Origin: Bacillota bacterium
GTDB lineage: Bacteria; Bacillota; Sulfobacillia; Symbiobacteriales; Symbiobacteriaceae
Direction: 5' to 3'
Assembly: GCA_023623185.1 (NCBI GenBank)
Contig: JAMNXV010000083.1
Location: forward strand, 1 to 36,422
Length of the DNA stretch: 36,422 nt
This document shows positions 32,428 through 36,422 of this stretch, one piece after another. The notes under the pieces are model-generated. The model did not search any database. It was not told the origin of the DNA and saw nothing but the letters and a program-made list of their open reading frames with translations. The number at the start of each line of letters is the position of its first letter. Position 1 is the first letter of the stretch. The translations under genes and the position numbers were made by a program.

Positions 32428-33465
32428 TTAATCCGCCGCGCCCGTCAGGGGCGGCGCCGCGGTCAGCTCCCGCGCCACCAGGGCGGCGAGGTCCACGACC
32501 CGGCACGAATAGCCCCACTCGTTGTCGTACCAGGCCATGACCTTGGCCAGATTGTCGGGCCCGACCATGGTCAGCGAGCCGTCGACGATGGCCGAGTGGG
32601 AATCGCCGATGAAGTCGGCGGAGACCAGCGGCGCCTCGCTGTACGCGAGGATGCCCTTCAGGGGCCCGGCGGCCGCGTCGCGGAAGACCTGGTTGATCTC
32701 GTCGCGGGTGGTCGGCCGCTCCAGCTGGGCCACCAGGTCGACCACGGAGACGTCGGGCGTGGGCACCCGCAGGGCGAAGCCGTTCAGGCGGCCCTTCAGC
32801 TCGGGCAGCACCTGGGCCACGGCGCGGGCGGCGCCGGTGGTGGTGGGGATGATCGAGGCGGTGGCCGCCCGGGCCCGCCGGAGGTCGCGGTGGGGGTTAT
32901 CCAGCATGTTCTGGTCGTTGGTGTAGGCGTGGACGGTGGTCATGAGCCCGGTGCGGATGCCGAAGGCCTCGTGCAGCACCTTGGCGACCGGCGCCAGGCA
33001 GTTGGTGGTGCAGGAGGCGGCGGCGATGACGTGGTGCCTGTCGGGGCGGTAGTCGCCCTGGTTGACGCCCATCACCACCGTGACGTCGGGGTCCTTGGTG
33101 GCCGTGGTGATGATGACCTTCCGCGCGCCGGATGCCAGGTGAAGTGCGGCGCGTTCCCGCTCCTTGTGCTTGCCCGTCGCCTCGATGACGATGTCGATGT
33201 CCAGCTCCCGCCAGGGAAGCTTGGATGCATCCCGCTCGGAAACCAGGCGGATGGCGCGACCGTTCACCAGGATCTCGCCGTCGCCCGCGAGCACCTCTGC
33301 ATCCAGCCGGCCGTGTACGGTGTCGTACTTCAGCAGGTGGGCAAGGGTCTCGGCCGGATACGACGCATTGACGGCGACCAGGTTGAGGTCAGGATGGGTG
33401 AGAACTCTGCGGCAGACCATGCGGCCAATGCGTCCGAAGCCGTTGATCGCCACGTTCGCCTTCAC
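32428..33465 (-). CDS. gapB: Glyceraldehyde-3-phosphate dehydrogenase, GapB-like
   Basis: This enzyme interconverts glyceraldehyde-3-phosphate and 1,3-bisphosphoglycerate. The 345-residue protein has the Rossmann motif INGFGRIGR, catalytic Cys152 in ASCTTNC, and the C-terminal NEWGYS. The segment after the second strand reads VNASYPAETLAHLLKYDTVHG, like Bacillus GapB. It lacks the acidic residue that selects NAD in glycolytic GapA (Ala34 here), pointing to NADP use and a gluconeogenic direction. That agrees with the presence of pyruvate carboxylase 22 kb away, though not in the same operon. The GTG at 33465 has AGGAGG nine bases upstream; a 25-residue frame extension lacks homology. A CGGGGC/GCCCCG hairpin (33485-33501) stands just upstream of the ribosome site. 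Confidence 0.93.
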   Translation of the reverse strand: MKANVAINGFGRIGRMVCRRVLTHPDLNLVAVNASYPAETLAHLLKYDTVHGRLDAEVLAGDGEILVNGRAIRLVSERDASKLPWRELDIDIVIEATGKHKERERAALHLASGARKVIITTATKDPDVTVVMGVNQGDYRPDRHHVIAAASCTTNCLAPVAKVLHEAFGIRTGLMTTVHAYTNDQNMLDNPHRDLRRARAATASIIPTTTGAARAVAQVLPELKGRLNGFALRVPTPDVSVVDLVAQLERPTTRDEINQVFRDAAAGPLKGILAYSEAPLVSADFIGDSHSAIVDGSLTMVGPDNLAKVMAWYDNEWGYSCRVVDLAALVARELTAAPPLTGAAD

Positions 33466-33525
33466 TTCATCAAACCTCCTGCCGCGGGGCTCGGGGCCCC
33501 GTAGTCCATAAGTGCCATCGATTTC

Positions 33526-33555: not shown

Positions 33556-33626
33556 TCGATCATCCCGATGCGGGTTATCGAGTCCCTCTATAGGAAGTGC
33601 GGCGGCGGGTCTCCGGCTTCGGCACC

Positions 33627-33673
33627 TGCACCAGAGTGCCTGCAACCACTTGCACGGTCTGCAACGCCCTGCA
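33627..33673 (+). promoter_or_regulatory. Periodic TGCA half-site cluster, candidate enhancer for a sigma-54 activator
   Basis: TGCA occurs five times in 47 bases, starting at 33627, 33641, 33651, 33660 and 33670. The last four are spaced 9-10 bases apart, about one helical turn. Two of them form the perfect inverted repeat TTGCA-N5-TGCAA (33650-33664). The cluster is centred some 75-90 bases upstream of the expected sigma-54 start site, where an activator such as BkdR would bind. Confidence 0.5.
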
Positions 33674-33714
33674 GAGACCGCGGATTGGCGGCTGCGCCAA
33701 AGGCGCCATGAGAC

Positions 33715-33730
33715 TGGCACGAAAGTTGCA
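33715..33730 (+). promoter_or_regulatory. Sigma-54 (SigL/RpoN) promoter of the lpdV-bkd operon
   Basis: TGGCACG (33715-33721), four bases AAAG, then TTGCA (33726-33730) is a perfect match to the -24/-12 consensus TGGCACG-N4-TTGCW. The GG and GC dinucleotides are 12 bases apart, as required. Transcription would start near 33740, giving a leader of about 60 bases before lpdV. The Bacillus bkd operon is known to be SigL- and BkdR-dependent, which matches. Confidence 0.88.
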
Positions 33731-33800: not shown

Positions 33801-35216
33801 ATGAGTCACTCCTTCGATGTCGTCGTCATCGGCGGCGGGCCCGGCGGGTACGTCGCGGCGATCCGCGGCGCCCAGCTGGGGCTCAGGGTCGCCCTGGTGG
33901 AGCAGGAGAAAGTTGGCGGCACCTGCCTGCACAGGGGCTGCATTCCCACGAAGGCCTACCTGCGCAGCGCGGAGCTGCTGCACACCCTGCGCCAGTCCCG
34001 GGAGTTCGGCGTGCTGGCCGAGGGCGCCGGCCTCGACTTCGCCGCGGTCCGGTCGCGCAAGGACAAGATCGTGAACAACCTGCATAAGGGCATCCAGGGG
34101 CTGCTGAAGAAGAACGGCGTCGCAGTCTTCCAGGGCCGGGGGGCCCTGGTCCCGCCCTCGATCTTCTCGCCCAATGGCCTGGTCGCGGTGACGGCCGGCG
34201 ACCAGCAGGAGCTTCTGGAGTTCGGCAAGATCATCATCGCCACCGGCTCCCGGCCGAAGACCATGGGCATTCCCGTGGACGGCGCCCACGTGATGACGTC
34301 CGACGAGGCCCTGGCCCGGCCGGATCTGCCCGCGTCGGCGATCATCATCGGCGCCGGCGTGATCGGCATGGAGTGGGCGAGCCTCTACGCCGACTTCGGC
34401 GTGAAGGTGACCGTGCTGGAGTTCCTGGACCGCATCCTGCCCACCGAGGATGAGGCGGTGGCGGCGGAGCTGCATAAGCTGATGAGCCGCCGGAAGGTGG
34501 AGATTGTGACCGGCGCCGCCGTGCTGCCCGAGTCGGTGCAGGTGGCGGACGGCCGTGTAACCCTGCAGGCCCGGGTGGCCGAGGAGACCCGGGAGTTTCA
34601 GGCGGAAGCCCTCTTGATCGCGGTGGGGCGCGAGCCGGTGACGAGGGACTTCGGCCTGGAGAACCGCGAGCGGATCGCCTACACCGAGGGCGGCTTCATC
34701 GCGGTGGACGGCTTCGGCCGGACCGGCGACCCGGCGATCTACGCCATCGGCGACGTGGCCGGCGGGGGGCTGGCCCACGTCGCGTCGCACCAGGGCATCA
34801 TCGCGATGGAGCACATCGCCGGCCTCAGCCCCGAGCCCTTCGATCCGACGCGGGTGCCCCGGTGCGTCTACACCCGGCCGGAGGTGGCTTCCGTGGGCCT
34901 CACCGAGGCCCGGGCCCGGGAGCAGGGCCGGGAGGTCCGGGTGGGCACGTTCCCCTGGCGGGGCATCGGCAAGGCGCAGGTATTCGGCTCGCTGGACGGC
35001 TTCGCCAAGATCGTCGCCGACGCCGCGACGGGCGACGTGCTCGGGGTTCACCTGATCGGGCCGGATGCGACCAACCTCATCTCCGAGGCCGGGCTGGCCA
35101 TGGCGCTCAACGCCTCGGCGTGGGAGATGAGCCAGGTGATCCGCCCGCACCCGACCCTCTCCGAGATCTTCGGCGAGGCGGCCCTGGCGGTGGAGGGGCG
35201 CGCGATCCACATGTAA
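33801..35216 (+). CDS. lpdV: Dihydrolipoamide dehydrogenase (E3) of the branched-chain 2-oxoacid dehydrogenase complex
   Basis: This flavoprotein reoxidises the lipoyl groups of the complex and passes electrons to NAD. The 471-residue protein starts with the FAD motif VVVIGGGPGGYVAA. The redox-active disulfide is GGTCLHRGCIPTK (Cys42 and Cys47). The NAD site is IIIGAGVIGMEWASLYADFG, and FGRTGDPAIYAIGDVAGG is the second FAD contact. The C-terminal RPHPTLSEIF supplies the catalytic His of the partner subunit. The ATG at 33801 is downstream of AAAGGGGG and begins the homology. It leads the genes for E1-alpha and E1-beta, the order seen in Bacillus bkd operons (lpdV-bkdAA-bkdAB-bkdB). A perfect sigma-54 promoter lies 70 bases upstream. 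Confidence 0.95.
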   Translation: MSHSFDVVVIGGGPGGYVAAIRGAQLGLRVALVEQEKVGGTCLHRGCIPTKAYLRSAELLHTLRQSREFGVLAEGAGLDFAAVRSRKDKIVNNLHKGIQGLLKKNGVAVFQGRGALVPPSIFSPNGLVAVTAGDQQELLEFGKIIIATGSRPKTMGIPVDGAHVMTSDEALARPDLPASAIIIGAGVIGMEWASLYADFGVKVTVLEFLDRILPTEDEAVAAELHKLMSRRKVEIVTGAAVLPESVQVADGRVTLQARVAEETREFQAEALLIAVGREPVTRDFGLENRERIAYTEGGFIAVDGFGRTGDPAIYAIGDVAGGGLAHVASHQGIIAMEHIAGLSPEPFDPTRVPRCVYTRPEVASVGLTEARAREQGREVRVGTFPWRGIGKAQVFGSLDGFAKIVADAATGDVLGVHLIGPDATNLISEAGLAMALNASAWEMSQVIRPHPTLSEIFGEAALAVEGRAIHM

Positions 35217-35282: not shown

Positions 35283-36287
35283 ATGACGGAGGCGACCATG
35301 GCCCGGCATGAGGCGCTGGGACTCACGGCGGACCAGATGCGCGAGATGTACTACTACATGCTGCTGACCCGCCGGCTGGACGAGCGGCTCTGGCTGCTGC
35401 AGCGGGGGGGCAAGATTCCGTTCGTCATCTCGCCGCAGGGGCAGGAGGCCGCGCAGGTGGGGGCGGCGTACGCCTTCCGCCGGCGGCAGGACTGGTTCAC
35501 GCCCTACTACCGAGACCTGGGCGTCAACCTGGTGGTGGGGGTGACCCCGCGCGAGGTGATGCTGAGCGCCTTCGCCCGGGGCGCCGACCCGGCTTCGGGC
35601 GGCAAGCAGATGCCGTCGCACTGGGGCAACCGGCCGCTGAACATCGTCTCGGGCTCCAGCCCGGTGACGACGCAGCTCCTGCACGCGGTGGGGATCGCGC
35701 AGGCGGCCCGCATGCGGGGCGACGACGTGGTGGTCTACACGGCCTGCGGCGAGGGCTCCTCCAACCAGGGCGACTTCCACGAGGCCCTGAACTGGGCGGG
35801 GCTGCACAAGCTGCCGGTGATCTTCATGGTGCAGAACAACGAGTACGCCATCTCGGTGCCGCTCGACCAGCAGGTGGCAGGCGGGTCGGTGGCCGCCAGG
35901 GGGCAGGGGTACGGCATGCCCGGCATCGAGGTGGACGGCACGGACGTGCTGGCGGTCTATGAGGTCGTGAAGGCGGCGCACGAGCGGGCCCGCAGGGGCG
36001 AGGGGCCGACCCTGATCGAGGCCAAGTGCATCCGCATCACGTCGCACTCGTCCGACGACGATCAGCGGCGCTACCGGGACCCCGAGGAGATCGCGGCCGT
36101 TCAGGCCCGCGACCCCATCCTGAAGGCGCGCCAGTATCTGATGGACCACGGCCTGCTGGACGAGGCGGGCCACCAGGAGCTGGAGCGGAAGGTGACGGCG
36201 GTGGTGGACGATGCCACCGACTGGGCCGAGGCCCAGCCCTACGCAGCGCCGGAAGAGGCCCTGCGCCACGTGTACGAGGAGGGGTGA
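35283..36287 (+). CDS. bkdAA: Branched-chain 2-oxoacid dehydrogenase E1 component, alpha subunit
   Basis: E1-alpha with E1-beta decarboxylates branched-chain 2-oxo acids using thiamine diphosphate and transfers the acyl group to lipoyl-E2, giving precursors of branched fatty acids or energy from Val, Leu and Ile. The 334-residue protein has the cofactor motif GEGSSNQGDFHEALNWAGLHKLPVIFMVQNN (residues 156-186). The HSSDDDQRRYR stretch is typical of branched-chain rather than pyruvate E1-alpha. PSHWGNRPLNIVSGSSPVTTQ precedes the cofactor site. The ATG at 35283 follows GGGAGGGGGAG; an earlier in-frame start at 35253 lacks a site. It sits 66 bases after lpdV and its end carries the ribosome site of the next gene. 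Pyruvate specificity cannot be excluded by eye. Confidence 0.9.
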   Translation: MTEATMARHEALGLTADQMREMYYYMLLTRRLDERLWLLQRGGKIPFVISPQGQEAAQVGAAYAFRRRQDWFTPYYRDLGVNLVVGVTPREVMLSAFARGADPASGGKQMPSHWGNRPLNIVSGSSPVTTQLLHAVGIAQAARMRGDDVVVYTACGEGSSNQGDFHEALNWAGLHKLPVIFMVQNNEYAISVPLDQQVAGGSVAARGQGYGMPGIEVDGTDVLAVYEVVKAAHERARRGEGPTLIEAKCIRITSHSSDDDQRRYRDPEEIAAVQARDPILKARQYLMDHGLLDEAGHQELERKVTAVVDDATDWAEAQPYAAPEEALRHVYEEG

Positions 36288-36291
36288 GCTT

Positions 36292-36422
36292 ATGGCGGTG
36301 ATGAACCTGGTGGAGGCCGTGCGCGAGACGCTGCGGTCGGAGATGCGGCGCGATCCCGACGTCTGGATCGTGGGGGAGGACGTTGGCCGGAAGGGCGGCG
36401 TCTTCGGGGCGACGCTGGGGCT
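36292..36422 (+). CDS. bkdAB: 2-oxoacid dehydrogenase E1 component, beta subunit (N-terminus only)
   Basis: Only the first 43 complete codons fall in the window. They read AVMNLVEAVRETLRSEMRRD, then PDVWIVGEDVGRKGGVFGAT, which is the conserved opening of E1-beta subunits (GEDVG--GGVF). The ATG at 36292 is four bases past the bkdAA stop, and GAGGAGGGG spans that stop, so translation is coupled. The E2 gene is expected beyond the window. Confidence 0.92.
   Translation, partial: MAVMNLVEAVRETLRSEMRRDPDVWIVGEDVGRKGGVFGATLG

Follow-up and report, generated by a model that had tools for sequence, protein, structure and literature searches.

The window analysed here is the whole 36,422-nucleotide stretch of DNA. 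It is contig C205 of a draft genome (G000), 3.4 Mb in 226 contigs, that we take to be a Symbiobacterium. Its relatives used for comparison are two congeners (G001 and G002, the latter complete and in a single contig), one further family member (G004), and three genomes of the same order (G005, G006 and G007). The lpdV gene (33801-35216, + strand) is predicted to encode a 471-aa dihydrolipoyl dehydrogenase (E3), scoring 518 bits against TIGR01350, above its cut-off, with orthologues at 90% (G002), 85% (G001), and 73% (G004). It is followed by a bkdAA-like gene for a 2-oxoacid dehydrogenase E1 alpha subunit (35283-36287, +), assigned by comparison with solved relatives, and by the start of bkdAB (E1 beta; 36292-36422, +), which is truncated by the contig end; the complete operon, lpdV-E1 alpha-E1 beta-E2, is found in G002 (L105) and G004 (L110). 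The best solved relatives of E1 alpha are the Thermus 2-oxo acid dehydrogenase alpha subunit, then the PDH and BCKDH alpha subunits. The protein scores below the NCBIfam PDH equivalog cut-offs, and sequence models of E1 and E2 do not separate BCKDH from PDH.

The left border of the spacer upstream of lpdV is a divergent gene for a GAPDH-type glyceraldehyde-3-phosphate dehydrogenase (32428-33465, -; identified by ORF translation), an arrangement that is the same in G002 and G007. This gene is not regulated by the lpdV promoter described below. ATCGAT or ATCGAG repeats lie on the gap side of the spacer at 33517, 33555, and 33577, and the congeners keep part of them: these repeats are a possible operator for the divergent gene.

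Reading the spacer directly, we found the exact sigma-54 consensus TGGCACG-AAAG-TTGCA (TGGCACGAAAGTTGCA) at 33715-33730 (+), with 70 bases between the end of the -12 element and the lpdV ATG at 33801, as in the original prediction. The predicted transcription start is at approximately 33741. This is the sole -24/-12 match in the window under either a strict or a relaxed pattern (0.0 and 0.1 matches expected, respectively). Across the genome (genome-wide statements here are pattern searches of the genomes), the strict pattern gives 3 matches against 0 in the reversed control and the relaxed pattern 15 against 8. Given the latter ratio, the promoter consensus alone is weak evidence, and it is the adjoining array and its conservation that carry the case. 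The other two exact TGGCACG-N4-TTGCA sites precede a 162-aa gene near a LevR-type PRD activator (G000:C54:15887-15902, -) and a gene without known role (G000:C114:3439-3454, -); no TGCA array is present at either.

Upstream of the promoter are the five TGCA half-sites that had been predicted, four of them at 9-10 base steps. They start at 33627, 33641, 33651, 33660, and 33670 (steps of 14, 10, 9, and 10), that is, 88, 74, 64, 55, and 45 bp upstream of the -24 T. A four-member chain of TGCA at 9-11 bp steps occurs once in the window, whereas none of 300 first-order Markov simulations produced one. The array is both beyond chance and conserved: upstream of the lpdV orthologues, its steps are 14-10-10-10 in G001, G002, and G004 and 14-10-11-10 in G005 and G006 (with one degenerate half-site each), and G007 keeps three of the five half-sites in register. 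A -24/-12 element lies downstream of the array in all six relatives. In an alignment of G000, G001, G002, and G004, the half-site columns are invariant and the spacers vary freely; the -24/-12 element is invariant except at its variable positions. As a specificity control, we examined 18 lpdV-like genes outside the order (at most 57% identity, and so not strict orthologues), and neither TGCA pairs nor -24/-12 elements were found before them.

The last half-site lies 35 bp from the -24 element in G004, 45 bp in G000 and G002, 46 bp in G001, and 55 bp in G007: in these five genomes, the distance between enhancer and promoter changes by whole helical turns. It is longer in G006 (105 bp) and G005 (119 bp), which, together with the degenerate half-site in each, we count against the explanation preferred below.

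The two half-sites of a pair are a step of 10 apart in every genome, whereas successive pairs are separated by a step of 9, 10, or 11. Since insertions and deletions fall only between the pairs and the spacing within them is fixed, the operator unit is TGCA-N6-TGCA. In the window, this gives two proposed dimer sites (no strand assigned): D1, CCTGCA-ACCACT-TGCACG, at 33639-33656 (TGCA 33641 and 33651), and D2, TCTGCA-ACGCCC-TGCAGA, at 33658-33675 (TGCA 33660 and 33670). Both fit the consensus Y-N-TGCA-N6-TGCA-N-R derived from 36 pairs, in which the search itself imposes the TGCA columns and the outer Y/R is the informative flank (0.47 bits). The unit suggested originally, TTGCA-N5-TGCAA, has to be given up: at 33650-33664 it straddles the junction of D1 and D2, and the 9-bp step of G000 and the 11-bp step of G005 and G006 fall between pairs. 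The outlying half-site (33627-33630, also without strand), 14 bp upstream of D1, is kept in all six relatives (in G005 with the next half-site degenerate). Its 14-bp distance is strictly kept and mirrors a 14-bp gap between pairs at bcd (see below), and a degenerate TGCC partner follows it by 10 bp in the genus (33637-33640); we take it for one half of a weak third site.

The genome encodes a sigma-54 factor, the absence of which would have spoken against such a promoter: rpoN is on contig C187 (Sigma54_DBD, E 1.2e-63). A -24/-12-like sequence is located approximately 70 bp before the rpoN start, both here (TGGCACAGGACTTGCA in L237, G000:C187:14424-14439, -) and in G002 (TGGCACGGGATTTGCA in L220, G002:C1:265873-265888, +), and autoregulation of rpoN is possible. 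There are 8 real enhancer-binding proteins in the genome, and 4 further Pfam hits are weak. Alone among the 8, one encoded on contig C178 (L017 7847-9919, C178:25846-27918; assigned by Pfam and gene context) has a clear orthologue by reciprocal best hits in every array-bearing relative of the order, so that array and activator co-occur in the same six genomes. Its domains by Pfam are a Rossmann-like N-terminus, two PAS domains, Sigma54_activat, and a Fis-type HTH_8, and the region of its recognition helix, APRTLYYKLER, is identical in seven genomes.

A Spo0A-like gene lies directly before the activator gene, and genes of the leucine dehydrogenase type, for butyrate kinase, and for phosphobutyryltransferase follow it; the order spo0A-bkdR-bcd-buk-ptb is the same on C178 and in G001, G002, and G004. 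In Bacillus, a gene set of the ptb/bcd/buk type forms the front half of the bkd operon. Because of this context and the domain architecture, we call the protein BkdR and regard it as BkdR-like; its score against PrdR, the closest NCBIfam model with a name, falls short of the cut-off. This is the BkdR-type activator for which a search had been suggested, linked to bcd-buk-ptb and with operator and -24/-12 element directly behind its gene. On C178, ptb is followed by a further gene of the leucine dehydrogenase type and a further butyrate kinase gene (L017 3450-4523 and 2278-3369), which makes a tandem duplication of the pathway's front half. In G003, a 77%-complete draft, bkdR was not found and the bcd operator is present, which we also count against the preferred explanation. 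For a Bacillus BkdR, a scan of genome contigs returned only Symbiobacteriaceae and other Bacillota MAGs, and a plasmid search returned only generic PAS proteins.

The sensory part of BkdR was examined further. Structure prediction and fold search confirmed the PAS domains (CitA-like) and did not advance the mechanism. Residues 1-90 match Pfam NAD_binding_3 (26.4 bits; cut-off 24) and are Rossmann-like; orthologues from the class are without this part, their matches beginning near query residue 104-123.

In the bkdR-bcd spacer of G000, TGCA recurs at 10-14-10 steps and is followed by TGGCATG-AAAC-TTGCG; equivalents of this enhancer and promoter are present in G002 and G004. In G001, the bcd enhancer lies past an insertion, approximately 700 bp farther from bkdR, with TGGCACAGATGTTGCA; the same is found ahead of bcd in G003. 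The G001 insertion (L120 5600-6250), on the bkdR side of the enhancer, is repetitive DNA of approximately 600 bp with copies of a TGAAACTCCATGAGCCA...GAGTTACACTTTG block; enhancer and promoter are intact behind it. No bcd promoter was found behind bkdR in G005, G006, or G007, a further point that we set against the preferred explanation. The association extends beyond the order: activator orthologues occur in other families of the class, several of them then followed by bcd-type genes, and among 24 promoters with a -24/-12 element behind bkdR orthologues across the class (not fully independent, as several genomes are from one family), 14 have a 10-bp TGCA pair, whereas 300 shuffles gave 0.22 on average and never more than 3. 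The gaps between pairs class-wide are 14, 18, or 22 bp.

When the double-dimer pattern TGCA-N6-TGCA-N(4-16)-TGCA-N6-TGCA was searched in five genomes (G000-G004), the only matches in G000 and G002 were the lpdV and bkdR-bcd promoters, and in G001 and G004 only lpdV; there were none in the incomplete draft G003 and none in the reversed control. A looser pattern of three TGCA also matches in G000 at C223 and C54, which were rejected as BkdR targets because the matches are inside coding sequence, and before a glutamate dehydrogenase gene at C106, rejected for having no correctly spaced -24/-12 element and no conservation in G001 or G002. It matches at C145 and C21 as well. Another TGCA array accompanies the sigma-54 promoter of a formate/nitrite-transporter-like gene (L234, G002:C1:3521945-3522151, -; L235, G000:C163 near 6994, -), with 9-bp steps in G002 and TGCATGCA-type repeats in G000. 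As a response-regulator-type enhancer-binding protein is encoded nearby, TGCA half-sites may serve a second activator with different spacing.

In every member of the order that was examined, the bkd genes are divided between two loci. The proposed extension of the SigL/BkdR bkd circuit to a high-GC lineage thus holds as regards rpoN, the activator, and a common operator, but not as regards a single Bacillus-type operon, there being two transcription units here. The layout in which ptb/bcd/buk run into lpdV-bkdAA-AB-B is not found; this is a trait of gene layout and is not defining for the regulation. The two targets jointly encode deamination, oxidative decarboxylation, and acyl-phosphate and ATP formation, and are predicted to make up the complete route from leucine, valine, or isoleucine to a branched acid and ATP. 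The operator common to the lpdV operon and bcd-buk-ptb argues for BCKDH as the identity of the dehydrogenase. The same sigma-54 promoter and TGCA-repeat site at both loci would allow the split pathway to be switched on together.

The closed complex of sigma-54 RNA polymerase needs an AAA+ activator bound upstream. Judged from its sequence, the lpdV region looks to be built as a compact enhancer that keeps to one helical face. We consider it very probable that both halves of a split bkd regulon are served by BkdR dimers which, from sites 45-90 bp upstream, activate sigma-54 polymerase. The spacer would then be the regulatory region of the lpdV-bkdAA-bkdAB-bkdB operon, with BkdR supplied from elsewhere (C178). 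BkdR, presumably as dimers, would bind D1 (33639-33656) and D2 (33658-33675), aided by the half-site at 33627, and its AAA+ domain would contact, probably by looping, the polymerase at 33715-33730 and open the promoter. BkdR would also act on the equivalent enhancer and -24/-12 element behind its own gene, before bcd-buk-ptb, so that one activator would serve both halves of the branched-chain amino-acid degradation regulon. The signal is probably a surplus of a branched-chain amino acid or keto acid, perceived through the PAS domains.

It is also conceivable, but improbable, that the sigma-54 promoter is real and some other enhancer-binding protein of the genome binds the array. Seven other real ones are encoded in the genome, bkdR does not adjoin lpdV, and TGCA repeats, with 9-bp steps in G002, are likewise found at the sigma-54 promoter of the formate/nitrite-transporter-like gene. 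However, no other enhancer-binding protein has orthologues in all array-bearing genomes, 10-bp arrays are absent at the other strong -24/-12 sites of G000 and G002, and the double-dimer unit lies directly behind bkdR, which the 10-bp pair follows across the class.

We think it highly improbable that the array is an operator for a repressor or other regulator independent of sigma-54 (of gap, for example) that is near the promoter by accident: although the array is in the divergent spacer common to gap, and Bacillus bkd has been reported as a target of CodY and TnrA too (PMC2743287), G004 and all bcd-type loci carry the array with no adjoining gap, and the array shifts with the -24/-12 element in whole turns and is always upstream of a sigma-54 promoter. 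There is next to no likelihood that the region is instead an N-terminal extension of lpdV from a GTG at 33597, with incidental TGCA phasing. The frame is open from 33597 in G000, but in G002 it is open for only 19 aa upstream of the ATG; conservation is confined to the TGCA and -24/-12 blocks, alignment gaps are not in threes, and, as noted above, the simulations contained no chain of four. The alignment and the short G002 open frame refute this extension.

Activation by BkdR at both loci, the reading that we favour, would mean that a deep-branching lineage of high GC content controls branched-chain amino-acid degradation through sigma-54 and BkdR, as Bacillus does. It provides an explicit operator, YNTGCA-N6-TGCANR, usually in tandem, by which the regulon can be found from sequence, and it describes a pathway kept under one switch after its operon was split: each piece carries the same enhancer, and the genome has no third copy. 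The restriction of insertions and deletions to the DNA between dimer sites, together with the whole-turn distance changes, yields clean predictions for footprinting and helical phasing. More tentatively, and with considerable doubt on our part, the BkdR of the Symbiobacteriales may have gained a Rossmann (NAD-binding-like) domain ahead of its PAS domains. The split regulon would then answer both to branched-chain substrate and to NAD(H) redox state or a related ligand, and the multi-dimer TGCA-N6-TGCA enhancer through which this control acts would be a previously undescribed one. While the sigma-54/BkdR mechanism is already known, three things appear to be new with respect to the open-licence literature (an earlier description is possible): the operator TGCA-N6-TGCA, a split regulon held together by a copy of this operator at each half, and a BkdR with a Rossmann domain.

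The closest known system is the SigL/BkdR-controlled bkd operon of B. subtilis and B. thuringiensis. The Bacillus bkd promoter is sigma-54 and BkdR dependent (PMC4428206; PMC6461809), and that of B. thuringiensis is TTGGCACGGTATTTGCT (PMC4428206). Similarities include the sigma-54 promoter, an activator with two PAS domains, AAA+ and HTH, the same gene set (ptb, bcd, buk, lpdV, bkdAA, bkdAB, and bkdB), and an activator gene directly upstream of a target promoter. In contrast to Bacillus, the genes are here in two groups, bkdR-bcd-buk-ptb and lpdV-bkdAA-AB-B, with a separate enhancer for each group, and the Symbiobacteriales BkdR has the extra N-terminal Rossmann-like domain.

With respect to operator design, the nearest parallel is the Azotobacter VnfA1 enhancer, GT(T/A)C-N6-GTAC, of which there are usually two sites per promoter, bound cooperatively (PMC9542535). 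Both systems have self-complementary tetranucleotide half-sites one turn apart, usually two similarly spaced sites per promoter, and a Fis-type HTH activator, but the targets and sensory domains are unrelated. As the half-site is TGCA rather than GTAC, the site would work like a VnfA site but is not one. A reconstruction of enhancer-binding protein motifs in the Clostridiales, by the same method and logic as here, defined 39 groups, 15 of which use TGT-N10-12-ACA (PMC6615313); there, too, conserved upstream sites and -24/-12 elements adjoin the activator gene, often with amino-acid fermentation genes. The text of that paper contains no mention of BkdR, bkd, ptb, leucine dehydrogenase, or Symbiobacterium. 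Finally, the C178 protein and the BkdR of Pseudomonas have their name and bkd targets in common but differ in regulator family. Pseudomonas BkdR is an Lrp-family regulator and not an enhancer-binding protein. It has the bkd genes as targets and responds to branched-chain amino acids (PMC6461809).
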